From positions 1-48,539 of IMG/VR virus record IMGVR_UViG_3300034082_002857: 48,539 nt of DNA. One strand, given 5' to 3'. Positions 1,671 through 27,486 of this stretch are shown piece by piece. Numbering within the stretch: position 1 is the first letter of the stretch; every line of letters begins with the position of its first letter. This DNA is from a virus. Under the pieces are notes generated by a model. It ran no database searches. It worked only from the letters and a program-made list of their open reading frames with translations, and was not told the origin of the DNA. The position numbers and the translations under genes are program-made.

Positions 1671-2299
1671 TGAATAGCCTTCCTTACTTTAATAGATGTA
1701 GAATCTTGTACATATGTTTTATATGGGTGTCCTGTATGAGGATCATATTTTGATGCTGTAGATAGTGCTTTCAAAACATGACGCTTTGCTTGCGTTAAAG
1801 TAGGCATCTTTGGGCACAAAATATTAAGCGCACCGAGGGCATAGTACGTCCCCGTTCCAATTGCATATAAGCCGGAAGCATCTGTGGTCCACGCATAATC
1901 ATTATCAATTTGATAAATCATTCTATTTACTGAGATAATGATAGATGAACCTTGTTGCGCCACATGATCTGACGACTCCTTGGGTGGTGGAGAGTATCCG
2001 TTTGAATCAAAACACTCTCTTAACGCTGAAACGAATTTGAGAGTAATGAATTCATCTAGTTTTCTCCCTTTCATCGCTGCCGGAGGAATCGGAGGTTGAA
2101 ATGCATAGTTGATTAAGTTGATGGCACGTAGATCGCCGGCAATACCAATTAAATATGGTCCCACTTGCGCTATTTTGCTCATAGATGGACTTAACGTTTG
2201 CACATATGAGACATATCCATCATCGTCAACCGTAGAAATCCGACTATCAGAACAAAGAATGGTAAAACCATCTCCTTGTATTCCGACAATTGTTGTCAT
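1667..2299 (-). CDS. Proteasome beta/HslV-like Ntn hydrolase, 210 aa
   Basis: The protein looks like a 20S-proteasome or HslV-type peptidase subunit. With the ATG at 2299 it begins Met-Thr-Thr-Ile-Val-Gly, which exposes the nucleophile Thr1 after Met removal. Counting from that Thr, Asp17 lies in ILCSDSR, and Lys41 in SMSKIAQV takes the place of Lys33, displaced by an apparent eight-residue insertion. GIAGD and the late AIGTGTYYALGAL glycine turn match the family's conserved Gly segments. I chose this start over upstream in-frame codons because it creates Thr1, has a GGAAAA ribosome site, and lies just after the stop of the metallophosphoesterase gene. No ATPase partner is encoded nearby. It may assemble alone, compete with or join host proteasome subunits, or process phage proteins. 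Confidence 0.8.
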   Translation of the reverse strand: MTTIVGIQGDGFTILCSDSRISTVDDDGYVSYVQTLSPSMSKIAQVGPYLIGIAGDLRAINLINYAFQPPIPPAAMKGRKLDEFITLKFVSALRECFDSNGYSPPPKESSDHVAQQGSSIIISVNRMIYQIDNDYAWTTDASGLYAIGTGTYYALGALNILCPKMPTLTQAKRHVLKALSTASKYDPHTGHPYKTYVQDSTSIKVRKAIQ

Positions 2300-2300
2300 T

Positions 2301-4997: not shown

Positions 4998-6311
4998 TTA
5001 TTTATTTTTTTTAGCGAATAAATAGATGGCAAAACCAGAAGCGAGAATGCCAAATGCGATAAGACCTGAATTGTCTGTATCCGAGCCCGTAATTGGGAGG
5101 GTGGTGACTTGAGTTGGAACTGTTGTCGTGGGTGCCTCTGTTGTCACCGCAGGGGCCTCTGTAGTTGTCACGGGGGCTTCCGAAGTAGTTGTGGGTGCCA
5201 TTGTGGTGGTTGTCGCAGGAGCCACCGTGGTCGTAGTAGGGGCTGAAGTAGTAGTGGGTGTTTCTGTAGTGGTGGTAGTTGCTGGGGCTTCCGTAGTCGT
5301 TGTAGGCGCGACTGTTGTGGTGGTCGTAGTCGTCGTAGTCGTCGTAGTCGTCGTAGTTGCGGGGGCCTCTGTTGTTGTGGATGGGGCTACAGGCGCATTC
5401 GGGTTATTGGGGACAACAGCACCAAATGGTGCACCATTTTTTACAGTGTTGCCTGGCTGGCTGTCAACTAGTAAGACAGGCGAGAGTCCGGTATCACCAA
5501 GATTAAAAACTGCAAAACCAAGTAGATATGTTCCTGTAGTCGAAACCTGATAGGTGGATACTTGCCAGCCGGTTGAGCCATATGTTCCGGTGGAGTAGTC
5601 GCCGGTCCCAGGGTTAGTGAATCCGAGCAGAGCATAGTTGCCCACGCCATTATTCACAGTGATTTGTGGTGCTGTTCCAGTTCCAGTGTAAACAAGCGAT
5701 GTAATAGAACCATCATTAAACGGAACGTAATCTGTTCCAATATAGTTCCATGACATTGTGTAGGTTGCGCCTGCACTTAATGTAACTTCTTTAGTTATCC
5801 ATGCCGCATTTGTTGGGTTGGAATCACCCAAACCTGACGCCTGCTTCTGCTGGGTTAGAAGTGTCTTGATTGCAGTATTTTGAGTTGGGGTGAGACCCAA
5901 TGCGCTAGTGGCATTATCGAATGTGGGAGAACCGCTCGGCTGCAATGATGCTGCATACGTGCCATATGGAGAGAATGTCCAAGTAGTCGGGGTGACTGCC
6001 GGCGCATAATACGGGTTGGGTTGACCATTGCCTAGGGTCGGACTACCAACGGCGTTATGTGAAGGTGCGCTGAATGAAATGCTTCCAGTCGCAATATTGA
6101 CACCAGAACCTTCTTGCGTGATGGTTGTGAGTGCACTAGTGCCAGATACTGGGCTTTTGTTCCACCCATTTAATGTTCCGGTTTCAAAATCGGTACTAGA
6201 AATAACATCAGCAGATGCAACAAATGGGGCACTACTAAATAAAGCGAATATCCCCGTAGCAGCGCAGACAGCAACCATCAAAGATTTTTTAAATGCAGGT
6301 CTAATTTTCAA
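4998..6311 (-). CDS. Secreted LPXTG-like cell-wall-anchored surface protein, 437 aa
   Basis: The layout is that of a Gram-positive sortase substrate. Residues 1-34 are a signal peptide with a basic start, hydrophobic core and AxA-type site (Ala32-Ser-Ala34). Residues 35-305 are a beta-rich domain opening with STDFETGTLNGW, as in carbohydrate-binding or extracellular anchor domains. Residues 306-404 are a Thr/Pro/Ala stalk, partly an uninterrupted run of Thr. It ends with Leu-Pro-Ile-Thr-Gly at 405-409, a hydrophobic span at about 415-432 and a KKNK tail. The expected fate is export and covalent linkage to peptidoglycan by host sortase. This is not a virion part by any usual rule; it looks like a host-surface or lysogenic-conversion gene placed in the lysis region. 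A host origin is inferred. Confidence 0.85.
   Translation of the reverse strand: MKIRPAFKKSLMVAVCAATGIFALFSSAPFVASADVISSTDFETGTLNGWNKSPVSGTSALTTITQEGSGVNIATGSISFSAPSHNAVGSPTLGNGQPNPYYAPAVTPTTWTFSPYGTYAASLQPSGSPTFDNATSALGLTPTQNTAIKTLLTQQKQASGLGDSNPTNAAWITKEVTLSAGATYTMSWNYIGTDYVPFNDGSITSLVYTGTGTAPQITVNNGVGNYALLGFTNPGTGDYSTGTYGSTGWQVSTYQVSTTGTYLLGFAVFNLGDTGLSPVLLVDSQPGNTVKNGAPFGAVVPNNPNAPVAPSTTTEAPATTTTTTTTTTTTTTTVAPTTTTEAPATTTTTETPTTTSAPTTTTVAPATTTTMAPTTTSEAPVTTTEAPAVTTEAPTTTVPTQVTTLPITGSDTDNSGLIAFGILASGFAIYLFAKKNK
5100..5396 (-). repeat. Low-complexity Thr-rich stalk coding repeat
   Basis: This segment encodes residues 306-404 of the LPXTG-like protein, almost entirely Thr with Ala, Pro, Val and Glu. 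At 5320-5358 the DNA is a near-perfect array of the nonamer gtcgtcgta (+ strand), coding for the uninterrupted Thr run. Such tracts can gain or lose units by slippage, which would change stalk length in multiples of three residues without a frameshift. Confidence 0.8.
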
Positions 6312-14099: not shown

Positions 14100-14879
14100 T
14101 CAGATATCTAAACCAAATTTGCTATCAAGAAAAGTCCGGTACGTCTCAGCAATAATTGCAACATTTTCTTGAATAAGCGCATTCTGTTGTCGTTGAGCAG
14201 TCTTGGGGGATATGTGCTGCTTGTATATCATTTTCGGTATATGTAAGCATTTAGTCGCCAGGAACGTTCGGACACACAAATCGTAATCATCAGCCACTTT
14301 AAGGTTCCAGTCATGCCCATTGAGAGCGCGATAAACGTCTGCCCGCCAAGCCCGAACATGATTGGGAGCAGAAACGATATGTCGCATAGTGACAGTGTTT
14401 AGTTCTGGCGCACGCATAGTCCAAACGCCGTGCTCCTGGTCCCAATAGTCACTGCCGTACCCAAAGGCCCAACCGTCTGGATAACGTCCTGACTGCCCAT
14501 CTGGGAGGATTTCGCACCAGTCGGAGTAAACGAATCCCACATCAGGATTCTGATTAAACGCATCACTAATAAGTTGGAGGGCATCAGGAGTCAACTCATC
14601 ATCATGGTCAAACTCAACCAAAATATCGCCCTTAGCAACCATGAAACCATTCCGCTTCACCTCGCCAATAGAACCCGAATGAACATGAGAACGATGCATC
14701 TGAATCTTATACCGCTCATCCGAACAAAAACCATACAACTGACGCCACGTCTCATTATTCGTTGAATCATCCCAAACAACCCACTCCCAATCCCTGAAAG
14801 TCTGAGACCTCAACGAACCCCAACTACGAGCAAGGATTTCCTGAGGGGTGTTATACGTCGGCGTAACAATAGAAATCAT
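14100..14879 (-). CDS. GT2-family glycosyltransferase, 259 aa
   Basis: This is a GT-A fold enzyme that moves a sugar from a nucleotide donor to an acceptor. The N-terminus MISIVTPTYN and the WDDST segment at 36-40 form the nucleotide-binding part. Asp91-His-Asp93-Asp94 in EFDHDDE is the DxD metal site. DDYDL at 197-201 takes the place of the usual (E/D)DxDL near the catalytic base. The length is usual for a single-domain GT2. There is no membrane segment. It is the last gene of the oxygenase-halogenase cassette, overlapping the upstream membrane-protein gene by ATGA. Possible acceptors are fibre proteins, the host envelope or a small molecule made by the cassette. Confidence 0.88.
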   Translation of the reverse strand: MISIVTPTYNTPQEILARSWGSLRSQTFRDWEWVVWDDSTNNETWRQLYGFCSDERYKIQMHRSHVHSGSIGEVKRNGFMVAKGDILVEFDHDDELTPDALQLISDAFNQNPDVGFVYSDWCEILPDGQSGRYPDGWAFGYGSDYWDQEHGVWTMRAPELNTVTMRHIVSAPNHVRAWRADVYRALNGHDWNLKVADDYDLCVRTFLATKCLHIPKMIYKQHISPKTAQRQQNALIQENVAIIAETYRTFLDSKFGLDI

Positions 14880-15172
14880 ACGAAATGTTTTATAATTGAA
14901 GCACTAGCCAGGAAAACCCATAAAACATTAAATAAAATGATGGTCGGAAGCGTTTTCTTCGTAGATGACCAAATAAGTGCCGTACTCGAAATAATGGCAA
15001 AAATGTAAAGCCACCACCACTGCTTGCCTAAGAGTAGACCAGGGAAGATAATTGCGATTTTTGTTGCAAAACCCCATGCCTCAACAGTATTGGGGCTATT
15101 CCAATATTCCTTCTTAGACATTGTTTTAACAGCATCGACTATCTTCTGATTGAATTGAATTAATTTGTTCAC
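14876..15172 (-). CDS. Three-span membrane protein, 98 aa
   Basis: Three hydrophobic segments (about 35-49, 51-68 and 75-95) follow an amphipathic N-terminal region. A WWWLY cluster lies at the membrane edge near 52-56. I do not recognise the family. It overlaps the genes on both sides by four bases, so it is an integral part of the cassette rather than a random insertion. It might anchor one of the enzymes or move a product, but nothing in the sequence shows this. Confidence 0.6.
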   Translation of the reverse strand: MNKLIQFNQKIVDAVKTMSKKEYWNSPNTVEAWGFATKIAIIFPGLLLGKQWWWLYIFAIISSTALIWSSTKKTLPTIILFNVLWVFLASASIIKHFV

Positions 15173-15792
15173 ATTCCTCTTATCCTATTTTTCTTCTGAT
15201 GCTCATGCCTAGCACGCGCAACTTCATGTAAGTGAGATGGGCCCTTGGTGAAATACCAGTGTTCTGGTTCAGCGAAATGAAAGAAAATCATTTGTACTTC
15301 ATTATTCGCTGGGTCAGGGAAACTTTCACGCCAATGGTATTGGTCCTCACCGTAATAACAAACTGCCTGATTTGGCTCAGGCAACATCTCTTGTTCTTCA
15401 ACATAAATAGGCCACTGAGTCTTGTACGAGAGACATAGGTCCATTGTGTAAGTGCAGGCATTGTCGTCGACATGGTTTGGGAGTTGTGCCCTAAATCCAC
15501 GATAGGCAACCCATAGGCAGTATGTAGGTTTTAATGTTGGGGTAAAAATGGACCGGGCTTTGTCTAATAAAATTTCATGATATTCCGCTAATGGAGACTC
15601 TGTTTTCTCCGTACTATTTATGCCGAATCTGCCTAGGGATGGCTCATAGGAAATAACTTTGGTCTCCTGCAGTAAAGATAAGTCTTCATTTAATTTAATG
15701 AATACAGATGGCTCAAAAACTTCATCAACAATAAATGCTGGAGGTCTTTTATATAAAGTCCGATTCGTTAATGGGTCATAATAGGTGCTCAT
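15169..15792 (-). CDS. 2-oxoglutarate/Fe(II) oxygenase-like protein, 207 aa
   Basis: Counting from the ATG at 15792, the iron triad pattern is His107-Val-Asp109 (NHVDDNACTYT) with a distal His153 in YYGEDQYHWRES, followed by Arg155. The beta strands between them (YTMDLCLS, QWPIYVEE, QAVCYYG) give the jelly-roll spacing. This is a diverged member, so activity is less certain than for the two other oxygenases in the cassette. An upstream TTG at 15816 is in frame, but the ATG has less overlap with the preceding gene. Substrate is unknown; related proteins hydroxylate side chains of proteins or small molecules. Confidence 0.6.
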   Translation of the reverse strand: MSTYYDPLTNRTLYKRPPAFIVDEVFEPSVFIKLNEDLSLLQETKVISYEPSLGRFGINSTEKTESPLAEYHEILLDKARSIFTPTLKPTYCLWVAYRGFRAQLPNHVDDNACTYTMDLCLSYKTQWPIYVEEQEMLPEPNQAVCYYGEDQYHWRESFPDPANNEVQMIFFHFAEPEHWYFTKGPSHLHEVARARHEHQKKNRIRGM

Positions 15793-16459
15793 TGCCCAAA
15801 GACCCCCCGTTATCAATCATGTCAAGAGGCTGATTTTCACTATTTTCCAATATGAATGTACTAACAATCCATTTGTCATTTGAAATTGGCACGCACCCTT
15901 GATGCGGATGTGTCCAATACGCAGGAAATAACGCTATTGACCCTGCTTTAGCGGGTACATAAATGTCTTGTTCGCGAAAATATGTTTCCCCACCAACTTC
16001 GACGTCATTTAGGTAAACTACAGCGCCAAGAACGCGATTCATGACAACTGTAGGAACTGGTCCACCATCAATATGTTCACGATAAAAACCCGCGCCCTTC
16101 ATGTATCTCTGCATCCTGAACCCGGTATCACTCATCCCTGGCCATTCCCAGAGCCACCTAAATTGTTCTTGATAGTATCCAACGGCAGAAAATATTGCTT
16201 TGGAAACTTCATGTTCATAAGACGAGAGTGGTTCTAGTGGAATGTTATGTTCCATTAAATTTGAAGATGACCAGTTCATATCCATGGTACTTTTAATATT
16301 GGGCATAACACCACTGATGACTGGGCCAGGAGCAAACAATCTCTCGTAATATTTAGAAGACTCTTCAATAATTGAAGCACACAATTCTTCACTTAAAATA
16401 TTTTCAGCAACCATAATTGCAGAAGATTTTCCTGCAGGCCAAGAAAATTCGATGGTCAT
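15776..16459 (-). CDS. Prolyl-4-hydroxylase-like 2OG-Fe(II) oxygenase, 227 aa
   Basis: The catalytic core has His129-Ile-Asp131 in YREHIDGGPVPT and a distal His186 in THPHQGCVP. Lys196 is placed to bind 2-oxoglutarate. LGAVVYLND and GGETYF between them are standard P4H landmarks, so the enzyme should be active. The family hydroxylates prolines in proteins, and bacterial and viral members also act on small molecules. It is followed by another oxygenase with a short overlap and is preceded by a 79-residue small protein. A second copy of that pair, small protein then oxygenase, occurs at 20082-20922. The collagen-like fibre in the same operon offers one possible proline-rich substrate. Confidence 0.88.
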   Translation of the reverse strand: MTIEFSWPAGKSSAIMVAENILSEELCASIIEESSKYYERLFAPGPVISGVMPNIKSTMDMNWSSSNLMEHNIPLEPLSSYEHEVSKAIFSAVGYYQEQFRWLWEWPGMSDTGFRMQRYMKGAGFYREHIDGGPVPTVVMNRVLGAVVYLNDVEVGGETYFREQDIYVPAKAGSIALFPAYWTHPHQGCVPISNDKWIVSTFILENSENQPLDMIDNGGSLGNEHLL

Positions 16460-16474
16460 AATAGACCTTTCAGT

Positions 16475-16714
16475 TTAGTTTTGAGACAAAAACTTTTCGT
16501 AGACATTAAGAATGTCTCGCAGATGGAGTTGGGCAGTGTCGCTGTAGGCGGCGTTTGAAAAATCTGGTTGCCAAGTAAAAGAGCCATCAACCAACTCTAG
16601 GTCATCAGGGTCAACCCCCGCAAGTAGGACGGCAGTAAATAATTCTGTTTCTAAACGGCGGCGCGCAGTCTCTCTGGCAATAGTTTTTTGGTTTTCTGTA
16701 ATATTAAATTCCAT
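16475..16714 (-). CDS. Small partner protein of oxygenase, copy 1, 79 aa
   Basis: Unknown family. The protein is helical and acidic. Its core RLETELFTAVLLAGVDPDDLELVD matches KEQLFGSMVAAGLDPDLVDMET in the protein at 20674-20922: same helix, same AG-(V/L)-DPD turn, same acidic continuation. Both copies lie directly upstream of a prolyl-hydroxylase-like gene, which suggests a functional partnership such as substrate carrier, chaperone or regulatory subunit. The conserved DPD turn could also be a recognition site. The C-terminus predicts another helix (LHLRDILNVYEKFL). Confidence 0.55.
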   Translation of the reverse strand: MEFNITENQKTIARETARRRLETELFTAVLLAGVDPDDLELVDGSFTWQPDFSNAAYSDTAQLHLRDILNVYEKFLSQN

Positions 16715-16723
16715 ATTAGAACC

Positions 16724-17539
16724 TCAGTTGTCTCGTCTCATTATTTTATCAATAAATGTTTTATTGCGCGTAGCCAACTCAGAATCTGCTTCACGCTGCA
16801 TTTTTTTATATTTGCTTTTTTGTCTTCTGGGCATGAAGCCACCCCCAAATCCCCTGTGCCTTAGGAGATTGTAAGAGTTTGAATCACCCCACAAAAGTTC
16901 TGATTCTTTAGTTCTCTTAAATGGAATTACGTGCCACATTGGGCGTCCGATTTCAAGTTCAAAAGGCTCATTTCCCAGTACGTTAATAACCATATGAGCA
17001 TTATGGTAGTAGTCTGTGTTAACTACTGCAGGTAGCATGGTGTAATTTGGATTAGGGTCCCAAAGTGGAGGAAGAAATAAAGAAGACCAACCCGGCGGGG
17101 TTTTTATGAGCCAAGGGTTAATGACTTTAATGTAGTTTGATTCTTGAAGTTTGCGTGCTTTTGAAACAGGGCATTCACCTGTTTGTGAATACATGAAACT
17201 TTCAATACCAAAATCTCCACATTCGGTAATCAAGTCAAATTTGGCATCCCAATTTTTGCCATTCAAAGATGGACGAATCATCAACTTTGCCCAGAGGGGG
17301 ATAGTGAAACCTGTTGAAAGATAGTCGGAAGTGCCGGAACACCTCTTGAGTCCACCTTCTGAACCACTCAATTCTTTCCACCACTCGGGCCAATTCCCAT
17401 TATTGGTGTATGGGCGACATGAATCATCCATTAGATTTGGGTCAACGCAAGAAAGTAATACTTGATTCTTCTTCAATTTTGGCAGGTCATGAAAAATTTC
17501 CGGCTTAACTATTTGCAGTTTTTCTGAGTGCTTCAGCAT
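16724..17539 (-). CDS. DUF6065-like protein beside halogenase, 271 aa
   Basis: Starting at the ATG at 17539 the protein overlaps the end of the halogenase gene by 35 bases; an in-frame TTG at 17638 would overlap by 134. The centre has a run of conserved-looking features: LIKTPPGWSSLFLPPL, then VVNTDYYHNAHMVI, then EIGRPMWHVIPFKR. This order (PPGxS, VxTDxY, G-x-P, IPFKR) is what I recall for DUF6065, a cupin-like family without known function. The last 40 residues are basic. Its place directly after the halogenase suggests a shared pathway. Start choice and family name are the uncertain points. Confidence 0.55.
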   Translation of the reverse strand: MLKHSEKLQIVKPEIFHDLPKLKKNQVLLSCVDPNLMDDSCRPYTNNGNWPEWWKELSGSEGGLKRCSGTSDYLSTGFTIPLWAKLMIRPSLNGKNWDAKFDLITECGDFGIESFMYSQTGECPVSKARKLQESNYIKVINPWLIKTPPGWSSLFLPPLWDPNPNYTMLPAVVNTDYYHNAHMVINVLGNEPFELEIGRPMWHVIPFKRTKESELLWGDSNSYNLLRHRGFGGGFMPRRQKSKYKKMQREADSELATRNKTFIDKIMRRDN

Positions 17540-18980
17540 GGTCCACCAATTTCTGGTTAATGAGTTCCGATGATATTTGTGAAATATTCTTTCTAGAAGA
17601 TTCACGAGAATTGTATGCTTCCAGTTGTATTGATGCAACTTCTTTATTGAGTACTCCCTGACCTTGTGCTACGTGCCATAAATGTGCTGGGCCAAATAGT
17701 TCAAAACCCGTTGAAGGTATGTCATGATGTTCTGGACATCTAGTATTCCACAATTCAAGAAGATGCATCAACAATGGCGGTTTTTCCGCTTTTTGTTGCT
17801 CTGCCCACATTGGAGTGTCATTTCTATCCGAGATGTAGTGGAGTGAAATCATGCAAAGGATATTTTCCATAATGGAGTCCATGACACGATGATATTCCTT
17901 AATTCCATATGTTCTTTTATAAGAAAACGTCGGAAGATATGAACAGATTAAACGAGCCTGCTGGATTGTTGTGGAAATTGACGTTGCTTCAAGTGGCTCA
18001 ACAAATCCCGCAGCAAGGCCAACGGCGACACAATTATTCTTCCATGTTGTACTAAAGTAACCGGATTTAAAATTCAGTGTTTTTGCTGGCACTACATCAA
18101 ATCCATGAACTTCTGATGCTTCCTTAATAGCCTCTTCGGGCGTGCAGAAGTCTGAAGAAAAAACATAACCATTACCACGGCGTTTTTGGGTTGGGATTTC
18201 CCACATCCAGCCATTCTTCAATGCTCTTGCTCGTGTGTATGGACGTATCTGGCCAGATGGGTCAGATGCCGTTGGAAAAGCAATTGCGCTATCGCATGGG
18301 AGATACTTGCGATATGAAACAAAATTGTTATCTGATATTTTGTTTAAAATTTCTCTATGGAAGCCAGTTGCGTCAACAAAAAAGTCACCGTCAATAACAT
18401 CTTCAGATGAATCAAGTTTTACATGCTGAATAAACCCATATTCATCTACGCCAACATCATTTACTTCTGCATCAATAAAATAAATTTTTCTTTCTTGTCC
18501 GATTTTAGTTAAATATGCGTTCAATTTGAAGGTATCAAAATGATACTGGTTTGTTCCAAAGTGCGTCTTATCTCCGGCATCAATGATTTTGTTGTCTACT
18601 AAACCGCGCCAAGAAAAAGTACTTGTTAACGGCCAATCATTTTCTAACGCATGAGCGTAGCCGCCCCAGAATGTTCCAGCACTCAAGCCCGTCCCACCAA
18701 CACTATGGAAATAGTCGGGTGTGTGATTCGTCCAATTTTCGTATCTAATACCGTACTTGTGCGTAATGTCGACATTTTTAATCATGTCATGAACATCTAT
18801 GCCAATAGCGTCTTGGAAGTGGCGCCAATGTTCTGTCGAGCCTTCGCCCACGCCTACGATTCCTTTTTTGCTAGAAGAAATGACAGTCACTTCATAATTT
18901 TTGAAGTAATTTTTGATAATAAGTGCCGTCACTAGTCCTGCAGTTCCAGAACCAATGACTACTATCTTTTTTCTGTTCAT
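17505..18980 (-). CDS. Flavin-dependent tryptophan-type halogenase, 491 aa
   Basis: These enzymes use FADH2, O2 and a halide to make hypohalous acid, which is channelled to the substrate by an essential lysine. All landmarks are present. GSGTAG at 10-15 is the FAD-binding loop and VGVGEGST follows at 42-49. Lys75 in ITHKYGIRYENW is at the place of the catalytic Lys. Trp258-Met-Trp260-Glu-Ile-Pro263 is the WxWxIP signature that keeps the enzyme from being a monooxygenase. Glu331 lies in EPLEATS, the partner glutamate. Length is close to PrnA/RebH. A flavin reductase is needed but none is encoded nearby, so the host must supply it. A cyanophage enzyme of this family (VirX1) halogenates many free substrates, so the substrate here need not be tryptophan. 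It overlaps its neighbours on both sides. Confidence 0.93.
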   Translation of the reverse strand: MNRKKIVVIGSGTAGLVTALIIKNYFKNYEVTVISSSKKGIVGVGEGSTEHWRHFQDAIGIDVHDMIKNVDITHKYGIRYENWTNHTPDYFHSVGGTGLSAGTFWGGYAHALENDWPLTSTFSWRGLVDNKIIDAGDKTHFGTNQYHFDTFKLNAYLTKIGQERKIYFIDAEVNDVGVDEYGFIQHVKLDSSEDVIDGDFFVDATGFHREILNKISDNNFVSYRKYLPCDSAIAFPTASDPSGQIRPYTRARALKNGWMWEIPTQKRRGNGYVFSSDFCTPEEAIKEASEVHGFDVVPAKTLNFKSGYFSTTWKNNCVAVGLAAGFVEPLEATSISTTIQQARLICSYLPTFSYKRTYGIKEYHRVMDSIMENILCMISLHYISDRNDTPMWAEQQKAEKPPLLMHLLELWNTRCPEHHDIPSTGFELFGPAHLWHVAQGQGVLNKEVASIQLEAYNSRESSRKNISQISSELINQKLVDHAEALRKTANS

Positions 18981-19672
18981 TTTTTAACCACAAATGTGAA
19001 ACCTGTTGCTACGGGAATATGAAACAAGTATTTGTCATCATCTTCGGCGAGGCGTGACAAGTACTGAAAGTAGGGGTGCTTATTCTTTAATGAATAAAGG
19101 GAGCCAAAGTCATTGACAATATTGAGAATCATCAAAGCGCCCGAAGGCAGTTTGGTCCATACATTGTCAATAATTGAAAAATCATGACTGACCATTTCGA
19201 CATCAATGAGCGCCAAATCGTAATCTTCGTCAATGTCCCCATTGACGAAATTCTCCATAGAGATTATTTTTTCTTCCGGCATAATCGTATTCGTGTATTT
19301 TTCCATGTAATCAATACTCGTGGTATTTACATAATGAACCGTCGGAACAATATCGCCAAGCGTTGACGCTAGAATATAATTCATCCCATAAAAAATAACT
19401 TTTGATGGGTTTTTAATTCGTACAGCAATTTCTACAATAGAGCGCGTTAATACTTCAATATCCATGGCAGAACTAGATGCATCACTAATTTGGTCTAGCC
19501 AATTTAGTTGGACTGAATAGCCAATTGCTGAACGGTTTCTATCAACGCCAGTCGCTATCTCGGACTGCAAGAACTGTGCATTGCTCGCAACAATGGCTGC
19601 CTTATCAATGTCCGAAGAAACAGTATGTGAAAGCAGGTTCGCCATTTGGAAAACACTGTAGTTATCATTCAT
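18977..19672 (-). CDS. Methyltransferase-like Rossmann-fold protein, 231 aa
   Basis: The C-terminal two-thirds show alternating strands and helices in the order of a class I SAM-dependent methyltransferase: PSKVIFYGMNYILAS (motif I position, but with GMN instead of a GxGxG loop), VHYVNTT (motif II acidic strand missing its Asp or Glu), DYDLALIDVE (motif IV strand) and LPSGALMILNIVN (motif VI). The loss of the glycine-rich loop makes SAM binding uncertain. It overlaps the halogenase start by ATGA, so it is the gene immediately before the halogenase in the transcript. It may methylate the same substrate or serve as a scaffold. Confidence 0.5.
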   Translation of the reverse strand: MNDNYSVFQMANLLSHTVSSDIDKAAIVASNAQFLQSEIATGVDRNRSAIGYSVQLNWLDQISDASSSAMDIEVLTRSIVEIAVRIKNPSKVIFYGMNYILASTLGDIVPTVHYVNTTSIDYMEKYTNTIMPEEKIISMENFVNGDIDEDYDLALIDVEMVSHDFSIIDNVWTKLPSGALMILNIVNDFGSLYSLKNKHPYFQYLSRLAEDDDKYLFHIPVATGFTFVVKK

Positions 19673-19934
19673 TGTCCAGTCTCCATTTTAGAACATGAAA
19701 AAGATACCAAAATCGCCTTAAAGACATTTGGTGTCTGCGCAATTCGGCATGCTGTTCAACCGCAATTGGGGAATTTGGGTCATGGCTGGCTGCTCCAAAA
19801 ACATTACTACAGGACTCCATGAGGTCATCCAAGGTTAGATTTTGAATATCTGCCAAGTCAATGCCGATTGTTGCGGTAATCGTTGCTAGTTGTTCTTGAA
19901 CATAGTCAAAGTCATTTCGTAAGTTATAACCCAT
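19665..19934 (-). CDS. Hypothetical helical protein in cassette, 89 aa
   Basis: The ATG at 19934 overlaps the end of the 53-residue protein upstream; an in-frame TTG at 19949 is less likely. The product is mostly helical with a Trp/Arg-rich end (SLRRFWYLFHVLKWRL), no signal peptide and no membrane span of usual length. I do not recognise it. Its overlap with the methyltransferase-like gene by eight bases shows it belongs to the cassette. Confidence 0.5.
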   Translation of the reverse strand: MGYNLRNDFDYVQEQLATITATIGIDLADIQNLTLDDLMESCSNVFGAASHDPNSPIAVEQHAELRRHQMSLRRFWYLFHVLKWRLDNE

Positions 19935-20085
19935 TATTCTCGTCCTCAATTACAAAAACTATAGGTTGGTCAAGCATCGCGCAGGAAACAATACTTTCGT
20001 CATTCTGCTTATATCGGCCTGTAGTTAAATCAAAATTAGCATCAATAATTTGTTCAACATTGGATTCTTCGGGTTCTGGCGTCAT
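19924..20085 (-). CDS. Very small cassette protein, 53 aa
   Basis: Read directly from the sequence. The ATG at 20085 overlaps the stop of the oxygenase gene (ATGA) and the TAA is at 19926-19924, so the frame fills exactly the space between two cassette genes. The protein is acidic at the start (MTPEPEESNVEQIIDANFDL) and has a hydrophobic strand near the end (QPIVFVIEDEN), which looks like a small alpha/beta piece. I do not recognise a family. The tight coupling on both sides makes a real gene likely. Confidence 0.6.
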   Translation of the reverse strand: MTPEPEESNVEQIIDANFDLTTGRYKQNDESIVSCAMLDQPIVFVIEDENNGL

Positions 20086-20672
20086 TGGAACCACGTCACT
20101 AAAGAATATTTGACAGTGTCGTCCTTTTCCCCCACAGGTTCAGCAATATGTAAATACGGGTAATTAGAAGGGAACATAATAACGCTTCCTGCTCTTGGTT
20201 GAATATTTACATTAAAACGAGGGAATACAAGATTACCCCCAGTAAAATTGTCATTGAGAAAAGCAACGAGACTCAAACTGCGTGAATTATTTCTGAAATG
20301 GTCATGATGAGCATGATATTCGGCGCCACCGCCATACTTGAGTACGCGATATCCTTCATCCATTTCTAAATCTAATTCAAAAACATTTCTGTAATCCCAG
20401 ACTATTGGGTCAATTTTTTGCCAAATTTTTTGCCATTCAGATGCGAGGGGCATAACTCTTTCAATAGAAATATCATTAGAACCAAGGGGCATTAATTCGC
20501 AGCCCATTGATGTTCTTACATTAGAAATTTGTCCTTCACCAGTGGCAGACTTTTCCCATCGGACATATCCCCAATCCTGAGAACATTCCTCTTCTAAGAG
20601 TTCAATAAAATTCTCAGCATCAAAAATATTGTCGTATTGGCAAATGCCAACGGCATGTTCTTTAAATTTCAT
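20082..20672 (-). CDS. 2OG-Fe(II) oxygenase, prolyl-hydroxylase-like, 196 aa
   Basis: The ATG at 20672 lies one base after the stop of the upstream partner gene; an in-frame TTG at 20705 would overlap it. Counting from the ATG, the iron site is His122-His-Asp124 in YHAHHDHF plus His175 in YLHIAEPV, and Lys188 in VKYSLVTW can bind 2-oxoglutarate. LVAFLND, FTGGNLVFPR and AGSVIMFPS are the standard strands of the fold. All catalytic residues are present, so it should be active. It is the second copy of the small-protein-plus-oxygenase pair in the cassette (first copy 15776-16714). The two oxygenases are not close in sequence, so they probably have different substrates or positions. Confidence 0.87.
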   Translation of the reverse strand: MKFKEHAVGICQYDNIFDAENFIELLEEECSQDWGYVRWEKSATGEGQISNVRTSMGCELMPLGSNDISIERVMPLASEWQKIWQKIDPIVWDYRNVFELDLEMDEGYRVLKYGGGAEYHAHHDHFRNNSRSLSLVAFLNDNFTGGNLVFPRFNVNIQPRAGSVIMFPSNYPYLHIAEPVGEKDDTVKYSLVTWFQ

Positions 20673-20673
20673 G

Positions 20674-20922
20674 TCATCCAACGATTCTTCCGCGGATTTC
20701 CTCAATTTTTTCTAATGCCTCAAGGGTACGGGTAATTTGTTCCCGCCAGCCAGAGTTTTCTTCAGAAATGTCTGTTGCTGGATTGAAGGTTTCCATATCA
20801 ACCAAATCTGGGTCTAATCCTGCAGCGACCATACTTCCAAACAACTGTTCCTTAAAACCTGCTGCTCGTACTTCAATTGCTTGCAATTTGCGTTCATTTG
20901 TTAAAGAATCAAAAAAACTCAT
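20674..20922 (-). CDS. Small partner protein of oxygenase, copy 2, 82 aa
   Basis: This is a paralogue of the protein at 16475-16714. It shares the helix-turn core ELFTAV/QLFGSM, then AG(V/L)DPD, then an acidic stretch. As in copy 1, it lies immediately upstream of a prolyl-hydroxylase-like gene. It is predicted helical with a charged C-terminal helix (ALEKIEEIRGRI). No catalytic motif is visible. A carrier, chaperone or substrate role is inferred only from the repeated gene pairing. Confidence 0.55.
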   Translation of the reverse strand: MSFFDSLTNERKLQAIEVRAAGFKEQLFGSMVAAGLDPDLVDMETFNPATDISEENSGWREQITRTLEALEKIEEIRGRIVG

Positions 20923-20924
20923 TG

Positions 20925-21371
20925 TTATCTCCTTTGTCCATCGTGTACCATAACTTCATTCTTGCATATTTCTATGTCGTCGCGCATGGTTATGACAATA
21001 TATTTTCCTGATTTAAGAAATCTATGTTTAACGACAACGCGATGTTCTTCTATTACTTCTGGAGCCATCTCGCCTATAACTCGCACAATATAATCATCAT
21101 TATCTATTTCTACGAGACGAAACTTAACTTCTTTGCATGACTCAAAATCATCAACAAAAATAAAAACAAAAAGTTCATTTGTCCCAATTTGGGGACTGTA
21201 GTCCACATATTTTTCAATCGGAATTGAAAGCAAAGTCACCTGAGAATCATCAAAATCTAAAGTTTCTGTTCTTTGGGAATGCCCATTGAGTATTGGGAGC
21301 ATCCATGAACGAGCAAGTTTTGATGCTTCTTCAATCATTGATTCGTCTGGACAAAAAACTACGCGGTCCAT
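20925..21371 (-). CDS. Hypothetical beta-rich protein, 148 aa
   Basis: The protein has many short strands with alternating charged and hydrophobic residues (NELFVFIFVDDF, EVKFRLVEID, YIVRVIGEM, YIVITMRDDIEI). It looks like a small beta-sandwich or beta-barrel of about 100 residues after a helical N-terminus. I do not recognise a family. It is the first gene after the Gly/His-rich fibre gene in transcription, sharing one base with its stop, and is two bases from the oxygenase partner gene. It could belong either to the fibres or to the enzyme cassette. Confidence 0.5.
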   Translation of the reverse strand: MDRVVFCPDESMIEEASKLARSWMLPILNGHSQRTETLDFDDSQVTLLSIPIEKYVDYSPQIGTNELFVFIFVDDFESCKEVKFRLVEIDNDDYIVRVIGEMAPEVIEEHRVVVKHRFLKSGKYIVITMRDDIEICKNEVMVHDGQRR

Positions 21372-23083
21372 TAGATGTCAATTGCTTTTGTATATGGGAA
21401 GTTACTGTGGCTCATCTGTGTGTTTGCTGTTCCGACGTTGCGTGCAATGATAATAACACCACCATCGCTTCCCGTCACTCCGGTCCCACCAGCATTCGCT
21501 GTTCCTGCTGTTCCCCCCGTGCCACCAGCACCACCAGGCCAGTTCGGGTGTGGGGTTGCAGATGGGTTTGCTAGGGCATTAGAGCCTGTAAGTCCAGCAT
21601 TGTGGTTTGCTGCAGGGAATGTAAAGTATCCAGCGTTGTGAAAAGCGGGATGTGGAGTAGCGGTGGAGTTTGCATTATAGTGCGGTGCAAATGGCCCAGA
21701 TGACCATGGTGTGGCATTTGCGGGCGATGTTCCTGCCGGTTGTGTATGTGCGCCAGAGTTATGTCCTGTATTTCCCGCATGATGTCCGTGTCCCCCGGTG
21801 TGGTTGCCAGCGTGATGTGATGCCGGGTGGGCGTGATGTCCATGTCCGGAGTTGTGGTTCCCCGCATGATGTGTTGCAGCGGAGTGATGTGAGCCATGAC
21901 CAGCATTATGGTTTTTGCCTGGATTTGCATTTGCTTGATGGTTGGAAAAGTTTCTTGCTCCGTTGGCATTGTGGTGGCCAAAAAATGTTAGTGCAGGTGC
22001 ATGAGATGCATTCGATGTGGCATTGTGGTTTGACCAATAAATATGTGTGTTGGGGTTGTGGGCGCTAGTGTGAGAGCCTGCGGCCTGATGTGTTGCGTTG
22101 GATGTCGCGTTATGGTTTGAGAATGCGCCATGATAATTGGGGTTGTGTGCACCCGTAGCAGCGTTGCTGTACGGGGTAGAACTGAATGTTGGACCGACAA
22201 AGAAAGAGTCTGCGGGGTGATTAAATGTGCCAGCATTGTGGGATGCGCCGACCGAGTTTCCTGTCGTGTGTCCATACACTGGCGCACTACCAGCAGGGTG
22301 AGGATGGTTTCCAGAAGGGTGTCCTCCGGCGTTATGGCTCGCAGGACGCGTCGGTGCTGTCGTCCCTGCACTACCAGCAGAACCAGGAGTGGCAGGGTTC
22401 CCAGACGAACCTGCAAATCCCCTACTTAAAATCGAACCAGACCCAGCCACAGTTTTGGCGACAATAACAACTAGTCCACCACCAAGACCGCCCGCACCAC
22501 CAGTTCCCGCAGTAGCCGCATTACCAGAACTTCCAGAGTTTCCTATACCACCAGCCTGGCCTGCGGTTGCCCCAGGGAAAATACCCAAAGGCCCAGCACT
22601 ACCAGCACCACCAGCACCCGCATTAGCACTAATTGTTCCAGCATTGCCCACTACTCCAAGTGAACCAGAACCAATTTTTGTTTGAGTTCCGTTCGCAGTA
22701 ATAAACCATCCAGCAAGCGCATCATCCAAATCGTTCAATGCTGAACTACTAATAGCACTAGTACTAACACCCCAAGCATTCGCTGGGTTCAAAGAACTTT
22801 GCCTACCAGCGATAGTTCCGCTACCATCAGAAACGTTCGCTGCTGTAGTCGCAGGGAAACCAATCGTTCCATTATTGGTTAAGGTTCCTTGCACAAAAAA
22901 ACGGAACCCGTTAGTGAACAATGTTCCACCAGAGTCAACGGTTAGAGAGGAATAGTACATATCTCGTGTCAAATATGTTGTCGTACCATTGGCGATAGTC
23001 ACAGAGCCATCCAGGCCTGTGCCAAAGACATGGTCCCCACCAAGTCTTTGAACTAGCGATTTGTTTGTTCGTCTAATTGCCAT
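21371..23083 (-). CDS. Gly/Ala-rich and His/Asn-rich tip protein, 570 aa
   Basis: Three parts are visible. Residues 20-75 share the pattern DGSVT-GT-TY-TRD-Y--LT-G...FRFFVQ with the adjacent protein at 23085-23864. Residues 140-245 are Gly/Ala/Ser-rich with a GGLGGGLVVIVAK turn. Residues 249-512 are a low-complexity stretch with about 43 histidines in units such as NHNAG, SHHAGNH and GHGHHA. The end is a GGxGG segment, then GGVIIIARNVGT. Gly-rich sandwiches at phage tips can fold as polyglycine helices and carry variable receptor-binding loops; the adhesin of phage S16 is an example. The His-rich stretch could bind Zn2+ or other metals. I read it as a receptor-binding fibre tip. Confidence 0.65.
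   Translation of the reverse strand: MAIRRTNKSLVQRLGGDHVFGTGLDGSVTIANGTTTYLTRDMYYSSLTVDSGGTLFTNGFRFFVQGTLTNNGTIGFPATTAANVSDGSGTIAGRQSSLNPANAWGVSTSAISSSALNDLDDALAGWFITANGTQTKIGSGSLGVVGNAGTISANAGAGGAGSAGPLGIFPGATAGQAGGIGNSGSSGNAATAGTGGAGGLGGGLVVIVAKTVAGSGSILSRGFAGSSGNPATPGSAGSAGTTAPTRPASHNAGGHPSGNHPHPAGSAPVYGHTTGNSVGASHNAGTFNHPADSFFVGPTFSSTPYSNAATGAHNPNYHGAFSNHNATSNATHQAAGSHTSAHNPNTHIYWSNHNATSNASHAPALTFFGHHNANGARNFSNHQANANPGKNHNAGHGSHHSAATHHAGNHNSGHGHHAHPASHHAGNHTGGHGHHAGNTGHNSGAHTQPAGTSPANATPWSSGPFAPHYNANSTATPHPAFHNAGYFTFPAANHNAGLTGSNALANPSATPHPNWPGGAGGTGGTAGTANAGGTGVTGSDGGVIIIARNVGTANTQMSHSNFPYTKAIDI
21548..22339 (-). repeat. His/Asn/Ala/Gly-rich repeat region
   Basis: Coding for residues 249-512 of the tip protein. 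The units are irregular (NHNAG, SHHAGNH, HxAxxH), about five to eight residues each, and the density of His peaks at residues 392-446. On the + strand this produces several long false reading frames rich in Met, Cys and Trp. Confidence 0.75.
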
Positions 23084-23084
23084 T

Positions 23085-23864
23085 TTATGCTACCTGTAAA
23101 TAAATAGATGTTCCAGCAGCACACCCCGTACCACCGACAACGCTCGTAGTTACGCCAGTAAGTAGTGTGGGAGCAGATGAAACAATGATGACTACTCCCC
23201 CCCCACCCCCGCCTGAACCAGCAGTTCCGGGAGCGTTGATGGTTGCAGCACCACTAGAAAGGCTAATATATCTTGCGGCTACAATGACTACTCCCCCTCC
23301 TGCTCCAGAAGCACCACCAGCACCGCCACGTAAAAATGTTGCGCTTGTAGAACTGCCAGTAATTGAGTATCCACGAACTGCCTGTAGGGGCTGATAGTAG
23401 TAGTTTGTTCCGCCAGTCACTGCTGTTGGGGCTGTGGCAGTCTGTGTTGCGCTTGAGCCACCAAGACTGTGTGTTACGGCGACTGTTGCTGCACCGCCTT
23501 GTTGAATAGACCCTGCAGTAGAAAATCCTGCCGTATGGCCGATACTTGAGCCGTTCTCTAACATCAAAATATTTTGAACAAATATACGATACCCTGCAGG
23601 GTTAAGGCGCACACCGGCTGAAATAGTGAGGTTATAAAAATATAAGTCTCTTGTGGCTGTCTGAACAGATGATGATGGTGCGGCCATGCCTAGGGTTGTA
23701 TATGTCGATGTCCCATCTAAAGTGACGCTGCCGTCTCCAGCAGAACCATAAAGCGTATCTGGAGCGTCAAGGAAACCAGTTAAGTTGGAGTTCGCTTTTG
23801 ACGTTGTTGATGGTCCAGAGGCAACGCTCAGGCCACCTCCATTCGTAAAAATGAACTTACCCAT
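23085..23864 (-). CDS. Gly-rich tail fibre-associated protein, 259 aa
   Basis: Residues 40-120 match the N-terminal domain of the 570-residue tip protein downstream (GDGSVTLDGTSTYTT, RDLYFYNLTISAG, GYRIFVQNILMLENG). The second half is Gly-rich with GGAGGASGAGGGVVIVAA and a polyglycine run before VVIIVSS. These alternating Gly-rich loops and VVIV strands are repeated in the paralogue too. It is probably a fibre or adhesin protein, duplicated from a common ancestor with its neighbour; only the other copy gained the His-rich stretch. The gene lies one base after its neighbour's start, in the fibre operon. Confidence 0.6.
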   Translation of the reverse strand: MGKFIFTNGGGLSVASGPSTTSKANSNLTGFLDAPDTLYGSAGDGSVTLDGTSTYTTLGMAAPSSSVQTATRDLYFYNLTISAGVRLNPAGYRIFVQNILMLENGSSIGHTAGFSTAGSIQQGGAATVAVTHSLGGSSATQTATAPTAVTGGTNYYYQPLQAVRGYSITGSSTSATFLRGGAGGASGAGGGVVIVAARYISLSSGAATINAPGTAGSGGGGGGVVIIVSSAPTLLTGVTTSVVGGTGCAAGTSIYLQVA

Positions 23865-23866
23865 TT

Positions 23867-24235
23867 TTAGTATCCTTCGTATCCGTTTAGAATATAGTTA
23901 ACCGACGTTGCACTCGCCAATCCTCGTATTTTGTCTGAATACGTATCCCCAGCAGTGTTGTTGCTATTTGTTAATACCATGGACGTAGAAATTGTTACTG
24001 TCTCATTGGCAGCCAGAGACAATGAGTTAATAAAAATATGCGAACTTGCTACAGTGACGTTTTTAGGTTTCAAATAAAGAGTTACTGTCTGTGCAGAACC
24101 AGACGTATTACATAAGACAATCTCCTTAATAACTGTAGTCGTTGTTTGTCCAGAGGTATACGGAACGGTGTACATATCTCCTGCGGACGTGGCAAATGCT
24201 GCCGGTCCAGTTAGTCTTGTGGGTGTTAGTGCCAT
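23867..24235 (-). CDS. Small structural protein, paralogue of 13707-14039, 122 aa
   Basis: The N-terminus MALTPTRLTGPAAFATSAGD and the VLCNTSGSAQTVTLYL strand pair match the 110-residue protein at 13707-14039. The present copy has an extra loop around 90-105 (TNSNNTAGDTYSDK). Both lie among fibre genes, so they are likely interchangeable subunits of two different fibres or two attachment points of one. All-beta with no signal peptide. Confidence 0.65.
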   Translation of the reverse strand: MALTPTRLTGPAAFATSAGDMYTVPYTSGQTTTTVIKEIVLCNTSGSAQTVTLYLKPKNVTVASSHIFINSLSLAANETVTISTSMVLTNSNNTAGDTYSDKIRGLASATSVNYILNGYEGY

Positions 24236-24450: not shown

Positions 24451-27400
24451 TCAATTTGTGTAGCCGTAAAGTTTCCAAGAACCTGAAATTGTTGTGGCGC
24501 TTGCTCCAAGACGGAAGTTGGAGAATGCAATTCCGTTATAGGAACTTAGTCCGCTATGTATTAATGTCCCAGTGTAATTGCCGAACGTTGAGGCATTATG
24601 CGAACTAATAGTTGTGGTATCGGCAAGAAATGGTCTGCATATTTCTAGAGCAACATGACCGTCGGAAAATGCAATTGTGCCGACGACTCCGAGTGTCGAA
24701 TTCGCACCAACATAGTTGTCTGTGGAACCGCCATAAGTCAAACCATTCATTGCATAGTAGTAACCAGCCCCTGCAGGAGTACTACCAGATAGTAAATCAA
24801 CAAAGAATAAGTAAAGATTGGCACTTGCTCCTTGAAGGTTGGAAATAACAAGTCTGTAGTTATCGTAAGTTGAACTAAATACCGATGTTATGTTTGCTGT
24901 TGTAACACCAGAGAACGTTCCGCTGGACAAATAAACAAGGCCAATATCTCCAGTTGTTGCAACCGTTCCTGATTTGTTAGGCAAAGTTAAAGTACGACTA
25001 GCAGTTAGGGTAGTGGGCGTTAAAGTGACACCATAACTAGATGTACCACCAGCACGACCTTGAAGTTCAACTGCATCTTGAGTAGCACTAGAAGTTGCTC
25101 GTATGTTACCAATAACATCTAGTGAACGGTTGGGTGAAGTGAGTCCAATACCAACACGACCTGCGGCATCGATAACGAAGGGGGTTGAGTCTGTACTGGC
25201 CGAGTCCTCAACAAGAAAAGAGTTACCTATACCAGTATTGGTAATACGCATAGCGGTACCACTAGATGTCGCAACAACTAAAGATGCCGTATTTAATGTT
25301 GTTCCATCAAATGTGAGGTTTGCACTACCTGCTGCAGCGTTTGAACCATCTTTGTAAACAACTTGATTAGCGGAACCAGCAACAGGTCCAGTCGCGCCCT
25401 GACTGCCAGTTGCACCTTGGCTTCCAGTAGCGCCTTGTGGTCCAGTGAAACCTTGTGTTCCTTGGGGTCCAGTTTCGCCCTGAGTACCTTGTGGTCCTTG
25501 AGTTCCTTGCGGTCCAGTAAACCCTTGAGTACCCTGAGGTCCTTGTGCACCCGTGAATCCTTGTGGACCTTGTGGACCCGTGTCTCCCTGTGTACCTTGC
25601 GGACCCTGTGCGCCCGTGAATCCTTGCGCACCCTGAGCACCTTGGGGACCTGTGAAACCCTGGACCCCCTGAGGTCCCTGGGAGCCTGTTTCGCCTTGAC
25701 TGCCAGTAAAACCCTGTGCGCCCTGAACGCCCTGCGGACCAGTGAATCCTTGGGTGCCCTGTGGACCAGTTTCACCTTGTGGACCCGTCGCCCCCTGAGC
25801 ACCTTGAGGACCTGTAAAACCTTGCGCACCCTGCGAACCCTGAGAGCCTTGTGGGCCAGTAAAACCCTGAGCACCCTGACTCCCCTGTGCGCCTTGCGAA
25901 CCTTGAGCACCAACATCGCCCGTACGAGCAAAAGTAATAATTACATCTTCACCATTAGAGAACGACGAAGCGGAACCAGAAACATATCCACACGCAACTT
26001 CAAAATAACCAGTTTCCTCAGTGACAGCAGAAATCGTAAACAACGCAAAATCTGTTGAGTCCGCTTTATTAGAAATTCTAAAGTGGCCCTTGATAGTGCT
26101 TGTTGAGTCATCAATGGTTCTTAAGAATGACTGAATGTCCGTTGATGAATCATCTTGGTCATCAATGAGTAGTTTTGTTGCTGTCGTAATGTTGGAAGCG
26201 TCAAACTTTAGTTTCCCTGCACCGGGGTCGGTTAGGGTTGTCCCTGTATCGAACGTGTAGTCGAGTGTGATGCCACCAAAGTTCCCTTGGATACCTTGGG
26301 GGCCTGTTTCGCCTTGGGAGCCTGTAGCGCCTTGTGGGCCGGTGAATCCTTGTGCACCTTCTGCGCCTTGGGGTCCAGTGAAACCTTGTGTTCCTTGAGG
26401 GCCTTGCGAGCCAGTAAATCCTTGCGCCCCCTGTGCCCCTTGTGCTCCTGTATCACCTTGAGCACCTTGCGCTCCTTGGGGGCCTGTGAAGCCTTGTGCC
26501 CCAGTGAAGCCTTGAGTGCCTTGTGGTCCAGTGGCGCCTTGCGAGCCAGTAAATCCTTGAGTTCCCTGCGGACCAGTGTCGCCCTGTGGACCTTGCGGAC
26601 CCGTTGCTCCTTGACTACCTTGAGGTCCAGTGAAGCCTTGAGTGCCTTGGGGGCCTTGTGCACCAGTAAAACCTTGAGCACCTTGAGGACCAGTAGCGCC
26701 TTGTGCTCCTTCTGCTCCCTGTGAACCAGCAGTACCTTGTGGACCTGTGGCACCTTGACTACCAGTTGCCCCTTGCGCCCCAGTGAAACCTTGAGCGCCA
26801 GCAGAGCCCTGCGGTCCAGTGGAACCCTGTGGGCCAATATCTCCCTGTGGTCCTTGGGAACCAATAGCACCCTGTGCGCCAGTTGCACCTTGAGCGCCAG
26901 TTGAGCCTGTAGCACCCGTGGCACCTTGAGGACCAGTAGCGCCCTGTGCGCCAGTTGAGCCTTGTGCGCCAACATCTCCTTGCGGACCCTGACTGCCAGT
27001 AGCACCCTGACTACCAGCGGAACCCTGTGGCCCTTGTGAGCCCGTTGCGCCCTGAGAACCAGTGAAGCCTTGCGGACCAGTAGAACCCTGTGCACCTTGA
27101 GGACCCGTCACCGTACTAGCCGCACCCTCAGCGCCCTGCGAGCCAGTTGCGCCCTGCGGACCAGTAACACCAACAACAGTAGAGGGAACAAACTTTGCCC
27201 CATCAAACCTCAAAACTTGGTCAGCGGCAGCGCCAGAAGTATCTACCTCAATGCCATCAATAAATAAAATCGGAACCTTGAGAGTGTCGTCAGTTTTGAG
27301 GACATTCGCTGCATCACGATATAGGTTTACGTCACCCGCAGCAGAACCATCACCCCAAACGAGTCGTCCACCGCCCTGAACCTGCAATCTTGCGTAAGTT

Positions 27401-27486
27401 TCGCCATCAAGAAAAATTGTTAAACCATCAGAGCCAGCAGAAGATAACTGCTTGATTGTGATTGGTGTTATAAATTTTTGAGCCAT
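24451..27486 (-). CDS. Collagen-like tail fibre protein, 1011 aa
   Basis: The N-terminal 105 residues ([14 protein letters not shown]...) are a small beta domain that resembles the start of the neighbouring fibre ([13 protein letters not shown]). Residues 106-403 and 523-703 are Gly-x-y repeats, mostly GPQ, GAQ, GFT and GAT triplets, separated by a 120-residue globular domain (404-522). The C-terminal 300 residues start with [23 protein letters not shown], a unit that also occurs several times in the spike protein at 34677-37133, and end in a beta domain. Collagen-like stretches in phage fibres form triple helices. Proline sits mainly in the x position (GPQ), where prolyl-4-hydroxylases of animals do not act, but bacterial or viral enzymes may differ. 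The same operon carries prolyl-hydroxylase-like genes. Confidence 0.9.
25378..25920 (-). repeat. Collagen-like Gly-x-y repeat block 2
   Basis: About 181 residues of Gly-x-y triplets with the same GPQ/GAQ/GFT vocabulary as block 1, placed between the globular insert and the C-terminal fibre domain. The two blocks could form two rod segments with a hinge at the globular domain. Confidence 0.9.
26278..27171 (-). repeat. Collagen-like Gly-x-y repeat block 1
   Basis: About 298 residues of Gly-x-y triplets. The encoded amino-acid pattern is highly regular, while codon choice varies at Gly, Pro and Gln positions. The DNA therefore is not a simple tandem repeat; selection for triple-helix sequence with avoidance of long identical DNA is a likely reason. 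Confidence 0.9.

Follow-up and report, generated by a model that had tools for sequence, protein, structure and literature searches.

The window, by which we mean the whole 48,539-bp stretch of DNA analyzed here, is an entire virus record with tail and fiber genes, that of the freshwater phage from which the small1/small2 operon comes. A gene for a WhiB-type regulator (1356-1670, minus strand; PF02467, E = 8.8e-14), itself an indicator of an actinobacterial host, points to such a host together with a VanY-type lysin and a phage-encoded protein in which a threonine-rich linker is combined with a cell-wall anchor of the Gram-positive LPXTG type (4998-6311, minus strand; PF00746, E = 4e-6). The ORF at 1667-2410 (minus strand) gives a weak proteasome-subunit match confined to its C-terminal part (PF00227, E = 2e-7).

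The operon lies on the minus strand and is described here in order of descending coordinates. Upstream of the adhesins are a 1011-aa collagen-like fiber protein with a GxQGxxG repeat (24451-27486, minus strand), which prolyl-type oxygenases might use as an alternative substrate, and a small tail or fiber-tip protein of 122 aa (23867-24235; phrog_20100) whose position is conserved across locus maps. Adhesin-a (23085-23864; 259 aa) is a Gly-rich, His-poor paralog of adhesin-b (21371-23083; 570 aa), a Gly-rich and His-rich putative receptor-binding protein with 7.9% His, and the two have an N-terminal domain in common. There follow ORF148 (20925-21371), a conserved operon member with no family match of weight; small2 (20674-20922; 82 aa), at the first position of the family we call SMALL; OX2 (20082-20672; 196 aa), a 2OG-Fe(II) oxygenase; small3 (19665-19949); ORF231 (18977-19672), with no family match of weight and, by eye only, a degenerate Rossmann or methyltransferase-type look; a flavin-dependent (tryptophan-type) halogenase (17505-18980); ORF304 (16724-17539; phrog_7084), which has distant relatives in haloarchaeal tailed viruses and, when started at the ATG that its relatives use, encodes about 270 aa, with the ORF as listed extending to 17638; small1 (16475-16714; 79 aa), at the second SMALL position; OX1 (15776-16459; 227 aa), another 2OG-Fe(II) oxygenase; ORF215 (15169-15816), a phrog_2954-like protein; TM98 (14876-15172), by eye a small membrane protein of the kind that stands at the end of many such operons; and a family 2 glycosyltransferase (14100-14879; PF00535). 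The halogenase scores 338.8 bits against PF04820 (cut-off 21) and has the motifs GSGTAG (GxGxxG, residue 10), K75 (the catalytic Lys), WMWEIP (WxWxIP, residue 258), and FVEPLEAT; halogenase motifs are retained in most cases.

The initial annotation singled out two gene pairs, small1-OX1 and small2-OX2, as copies of one module. All four ORFs were recovered at the coordinates above with ATG starts, and both small proteins contain the proposed core LF-x5-AG-(V/L)-DPD (LFTAVLLAGVDPD and LFGSMVAAGLDPD); the spacing of the pairs, said to be equal, is 15 nt for small1-OX1 and 1 nt for small2-OX2. Small1 and small2 compared alone by BLASTP give only E = 1e-4, and the firm conclusion that they are homologous, beyond chance, draws on family profiles: an HMM built from the adhesin-linked (small2-type) group only finds small1 at E = 9.4e-9 and matches all 25 second-position SMALL members at E <= 3.2e-7, while none of 16,517 reversed decoy ORFs scores below E = 2. 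Judged by their PF13640 (2OG-FeII_Oxy_3) matches (OX1, 8e-9, 36.8 bits; OX2, 3.6e-15, 57.1 bits; curated cut-off 27) and by an intact iron site (HxD...H...K), OX1 and OX2 are members of the 2OG-Fe(II) oxygenase superfamily, as had been supposed, and they have indeed diverged strongly (26% identity over 140 aa); the H, D, distal H, and K columns are invariant in 86/86 oxygenases near SMALL. Small1, its stop codon, and OX1 are in frame, and the read-through product, modeled in search of an interface, reached pLDDT 72.8 and pTM 0.60 with 16 sequences; we claim no interface from it. Small3 precedes ORF231, the third enzyme-like gene of this operon, and is possibly a remote SMALL relative (hhalign probability 40%); it was not recovered by either SMALL-group HMM.

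The SMALL family and its gene neighborhood

Direct scans with small1 and small2 yielded near relatives only. With the neighboring halogenase as bait we obtained 79 loci, in which a small1 plus small2 profile found 67 SMALL relatives; a second bait, chosen against circularity, was the Gly-rich adhesin's N-terminal domain in two different head sequences, and in nearly all loci so obtained SMALL was again found immediately after the adhesin. The halogenase and adhesin scans together bring the family to at least 114 distinct sequences, a figure that comes from the best 80 nearest relatives per scan on fragmentary contigs and, like all counts given here, is inflated by kinship. No SMALL was seen at those sampled halogenase loci that are more remote (L066 onward, about 34-40% identity).

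Members of the family have a mean identity of 24%, and a nine-sequence alignment was too divergent for scanning. Pfam, PHROG, and NCBIfam offered nothing informative; 35 members searched against Pfam and PHROG gave scattered weak matches, the best being phrog_28768 (3 members, E = 5e-4, no function). Nor did we find credible relatives when SMALL proteins were compared by tblastn with 50,697 phage records (the matches of small2 to primase, at E = 0.3 or worse, are due to chance); profiles of solved structures gave only chance matches to repeats and coiled coils, and Foldseek searches of PDB and BFVD gave nothing below E = 0.4, fold searches being uninformative, as expected, because the hairpin fold is so simple. 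No fiber chaperone of the Tfa/gp25 kind was matched in Pfam, PHROG, or NCBIfam, nor did Foldseek return anything informative for these chaperones. An AlphaFold2 model of small2 from 75 sequences (pLDDT 94.8, pTM 0.80) predicts a two-helix hairpin without strands (H9-33, H48-51, H54-81) in which the GxDPD motif sits in the linker between the helices. Neither the 35- nor the 75-sequence alignment has a conserved Ser, Cys, or Lys, so that a covalent carrier or leader-peptide role is unlikely. An ACP/PCP-like carrier was rejected because the attachment Ser is not conserved and the model is a two-helix hairpin rather than a four-helix bundle, and a RiPP recognition element because the model has helices only rather than a winged-helix fold. 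SMALL is an unnamed helical family encoded between a His-rich adhesin gene and oxygenase/halogenase genes.

The usual gene order is adhesin-a, adhesin-b, SMALL, ORF148, 2OG oxygenase, optionally ORF231 or a protein of 350-387 aa, halogenase, and ORF304, optionally followed by a second SMALL that precedes either another oxygenase or a 223-aa protein, with a small membrane protein last; the window is a variant in which ORF148 precedes SMALL (adhesin-148-SMALL) and a third small protein stands before ORF231. Specifically, i) the first SMALL copy lies at or beside the adhesin, with ORF148 or an oxygenase as the gene after it; ii) the second copy lies between ORF304 and the gene for either an oxygenase or a protein of about 223 aa that is no oxygenase; iii) the gene before SMALL, for 84 distinct members, is an adhesin in 55, ORF304 in 21, and ORF148 (the window's order) in 4, and the gene after it, again for 84, is ORF148 in 45, an oxygenase in 21, and an unclassified gene of 200-249 aa in 11; and iv) SMALL lies at most 2 genes downstream of 88 of 96 distinct adhesins (two adhesin-centered scans plus the halogenase loci), and halogenase, oxygenase, and ORF304 occur at nearly every adhesin locus having several kb of downstream sequence. 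A 2OG oxygenase lies within 3 genes of 76 of 84 distinct SMALLs, so that the relatives are not, as would have refuted the initial annotation, mostly found apart from oxygenases. The picture of a conserved small partner beside divergent enzymes thus holds in that one family is kept there, but the direct neighbors are more varied than oxygenases.

Adhesin and enzymes occur without SMALL at five loci (L036, L043, L205, L211, and L248); a different small ORF occupies the SMALL position at L164 and L181, the one at L164 being SMALL-like in layout by eye only; and the lack of SMALL at L052 is a gene-calling artifact. At L114 (8001-14730) an adhesin with its own SMALL opposes an opposite-strand block, SMALL-148-OX-ORF304-HAL-SMALL, a rearranged operon, and the 54.8-kb record of this locus (G007) contains two halogenase genes. 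L225 has two SMALL-148-OX-HAL-304 blocks on one phage contig, and at L143 a cytochrome P450 (14128-15375; PF00067, E = 1.6e-26) comes after the 223-aa protein in the cassette.

The distance from SMALL to the next gene is at most 4 nt in 53/74 cases, a stop-start coupling, and the adhesin is that near to SMALL in only 7/84, which argues that SMALL is coupled to the enzyme side. Across 64 non-redundant loci the SMALL distance matrix correlates with those of halogenase (r = 0.78), ORF304 (0.77), oxygenase (0.62), and the two adhesin ends (0.53 and 0.62), modest evidence because the families differ in noise. In the rearranged locus L114 the adhesin retains one SMALL, and further copies are found in the separate 148-oxygenase-ORF304-halogenase block.

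The proteins of 350-387 aa (L047:6824-7987, L118:10746-11807, and relatives) have no known-family match. They lie mostly between oxygenase and halogenase, in loci without a second SMALL; their middle matches the 223-aa family (E down to 5.5e-18), and their C-terminal tail is SMALL-like. Such tails account for 9 of the 12 best SMALL-profile matches among 1,538 proteins longer than 130 aa, although singly they are weak (best i-E 0.006 vs 0.15 for reversed sequences), and their alignment with SMALL by hhalign gives E = 6.6e-5 and a probability of 64%. The tail is suggestive of a gene fusion linking SMALL to its 223-aa partner.

The adhesin and known systems

Adhesins with the cassette span 350-1070 aa. 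In adhesin-b, a candidate Gly-rich tail adhesin of the S16 gp38 or hafunavirus type with no PHROG match and a median Gly content of 19.5%, conserved N- and C-terminal Gly-rich parts flank a variable part rich in His; the His median is 7.1% (up to 12.9%, in the variable middle), about ten-fold above the 0.7% of the adjacent adhesin-a. Among 94 pairs, adhesin-b exceeds adhesin-a in His in 93, in Asn in 84, in Pro in 75, and in Gly in 75, and shows no enrichment of Trp. Protein-directed 2OG oxygenases have His, Asn, and Pro as known targets, and Trp is the usual substrate of this halogenase family (PF04820). Outside the cassette, the Gly-rich domain has homologs at three MAG loci and in halophage HF1 that contain 0-1.7% His, these cassette-free adhesins being few and from other lineages; the viral adhesin at L181 has 0.7% His, no SMALL behind it, and no halogenase on its 35-kb contig, of which about 540 bases lie upstream. 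This association, which is one within related phages, suggests that adhesin-b may be a substrate of the cassette enzymes.

Adhesin-b resembles the iron-binding fibers of the T4 gp37 type, which carry HxH motifs (PMC11705849), in being a phage fiber with a His-rich part; unlike them, it has His pairs enriched at every spacing from 1 to 12 and not as HxH alone, so that it bears no regular HxH needle signature, and a T4-like iron needle is not supported by the His spacing.

Pam3 gp25 is a chaperone for a Gly-rich-tipped fiber, is numbered next to the fiber gp24, and has a helical trimerization domain (PMC9608196). Like Tfa of Mu and Pam3 gp25, SMALL is the product of a small gene adjoining that of a Gly-rich-tipped fiber and has a helical part, and the work of these chaperones on the repetitive distal tip resembles the role proposed for SMALL below; unlike gp25, which has 162 residues, a beta-sandwich domain, and a recognizable sequence (PMC9608196), SMALL is an 80-aa helical hairpin with enzyme-paired copies. 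In haloarchaeal hafunaviruses host range follows a Gly-rich adhesin and the adjacent small protein (PMC8651126), and the likeness extends to a similar Gly-rich adhesin followed by a small protein, to a distant ORF304 homolog encoded there, and, by eye, to the layout of adhesin-b and HF1_490. However, the HF1 small protein has 128 aa and no likeness to SMALL by eye, the hafunavirus adhesin is His-poor (1.7%), no halogenase for those viruses is among the matches listed, and ORF304 is only loosely linked to the halophage adhesin (an adjacent block in HF1, several kb apart in HRTV-2).

The jumbo-phage survey of Iyer and colleagues (PMC7824862) proposed that a cyanophage cluster of halogenase, 2OG-oxygenase, and cupin makes a halogenated metabolite or decorates a surface; a review covers the marine viral halogenases (PMC10452541). 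As in these jumbo-cyanophage and marine clusters (PMC7824862, PMC10452541), a flavin halogenase and several 2OG oxygenases are found here in one phage; halogenase and 2OG oxygenases lie among virion genes in HTVC008M and beside fiber-assembly genes in P-SSM2. Our operon differs in that the isolate halogenases among the matches listed are at most 37% identical to that of the window, and no His-rich adhesin-SMALL-148 module was seen in the jumbo and marine clusters. With RiPP pathways it shares a small non-catalytic protein and a ribosomally made product whose gene has oxygenase, halogenase, P450, and methyltransferase-like neighbors; unlike them, the product would be an adhesin of 350-1070 aa, SMALL has two long helices rather than a winged helix, and no leader-cleaving enzyme was recognized. 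Our literature search found no described operon of His-rich adhesin, SMALL, and halogenase, a weak absence since most subscription journals lay outside the search.

Possible functions of SMALL

The reading we favor, if tentatively, is that the operon is a cassette for post-translational tailoring of the adhesin in which SMALL is a non-catalytic adaptor or chaperone. Both small-oxygenase pairs would then belong to one tailoring operon for the receptor-binding protein: the phage would produce the Gly-rich, His-rich adhesin-b; the 2OG-Fe(II) oxygenases, the flavin halogenase, ORF304, and lineage-specific enzymes would act on its variable segment, most plausibly on the abundant His and Asn side chains; and the SMALL proteins, as non-catalytic two-helix subunits, each translated immediately ahead of its enzyme from a shared message, would tether that enzyme to the nascent adhesin or hold the repetitive adhesin in an open state, different enzymes being served by different paralogs. 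The chaperone, adaptor, or substrate-presenting role of the initial annotation survives here as the best guess, but with the neighboring adhesin as the likely substrate. What we observe is that small1 and small2 are homologous, that the operon is conserved and its catalytic motifs intact, that His enrichment is specific to adhesin-b, and that SMALL is tightly coupled to the next gene. We wish to stress that linkage alone is no proof of joint function, because related phages inherit operons whole; the five enzyme-bearing adhesin loci without SMALL, and the lack of Trp enrichment in adhesin-b, count against tailoring.

SMALL might instead be a tail-fiber assembly chaperone or small fiber component for the adhesin only, its proximity to the enzymes being a by-product of the operon. 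The first SMALL does lie directly after the adhesin, the usual place of a fiber chaperone, but the second is away from it, after ORF304 and before an enzyme or the 223-aa protein; adhesin and SMALL stand apart from the enzymes in L114 and L186, but the extra L114 copies accompany the 148-oxygenase and halogenase block. Precedents exist in the Gly-rich-tipped fiber of cyanophage Pam3, which requires the chaperone gp25 (PMC9608196), and in the hafunavirus Gly-rich adhesin and adjacent small protein, which co-vary with host range (PMC8651126). Stop-start coupling to the next gene and not to the adhesin, distances that follow halogenase and ORF304 better than the adhesin, the five adhesins without SMALL, and the lack of a match to a fiber chaperone family make this a somewhat unlikely account.

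The same proposal as for the jumbo-cyanophage halogenase, 2OG-oxygenase, and cupin cluster (PMC7824862) could be made here: the oxygenases, halogenase, and glycosyltransferase would make a halogenated small molecule or decorate a host surface sugar, SMALL would be an accessory subunit of that pathway, and the adhesin a mere genomic neighbor. We consider this unlikely. It accords with halogenases beside 2OG oxygenases in marine phages, with the P450 in one cassette (L143), and with the glycosyltransferase of the window; yet in the mapped loci we recognized neither scaffold-building enzymes nor carrier proteins or transporters next to the core set, whose constant neighbor is the adhesin, and the enrichment of His and Asn in adhesin-b, but not in adhesin-a, would go unexplained. 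That SMALL has no partner, and is a common phage small protein scattered by chance among unrelated enzymes, is disfavored as very improbable: it is short, fast-evolving (mean identity 24%), of no known family, and missing at some loci, but it keeps fixed positions and a consistent order across dozens of divergent phages, both positions are homologous, and the sampled halogenase loci that are more remote lack it.

Carried to its full extent, adhesin tailoring would mean that many freshwater phages have a hypervariable His/Asn-rich adhesin whose side chains a dedicated operon hydroxylates and halogenates, one helical adaptor per enzyme bringing the adhesin to it, which we regard as possible if doubtful. 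More generally, our results suggest that chemical modification of the protein that grips the host occurs in many lake phages. Halogenases and 2OG oxygenases of phages are common in natural waters and are usually filed as auxiliary metabolism; the fixed link to a His-rich adhesin gives them a concrete target, the modification of a receptor-binding protein. If adhesin tailoring is true, SMALL would represent a previously unrecognized class of adaptor between enzyme and substrate, and the halogenases would be potentially useful as protein-modifying tools.
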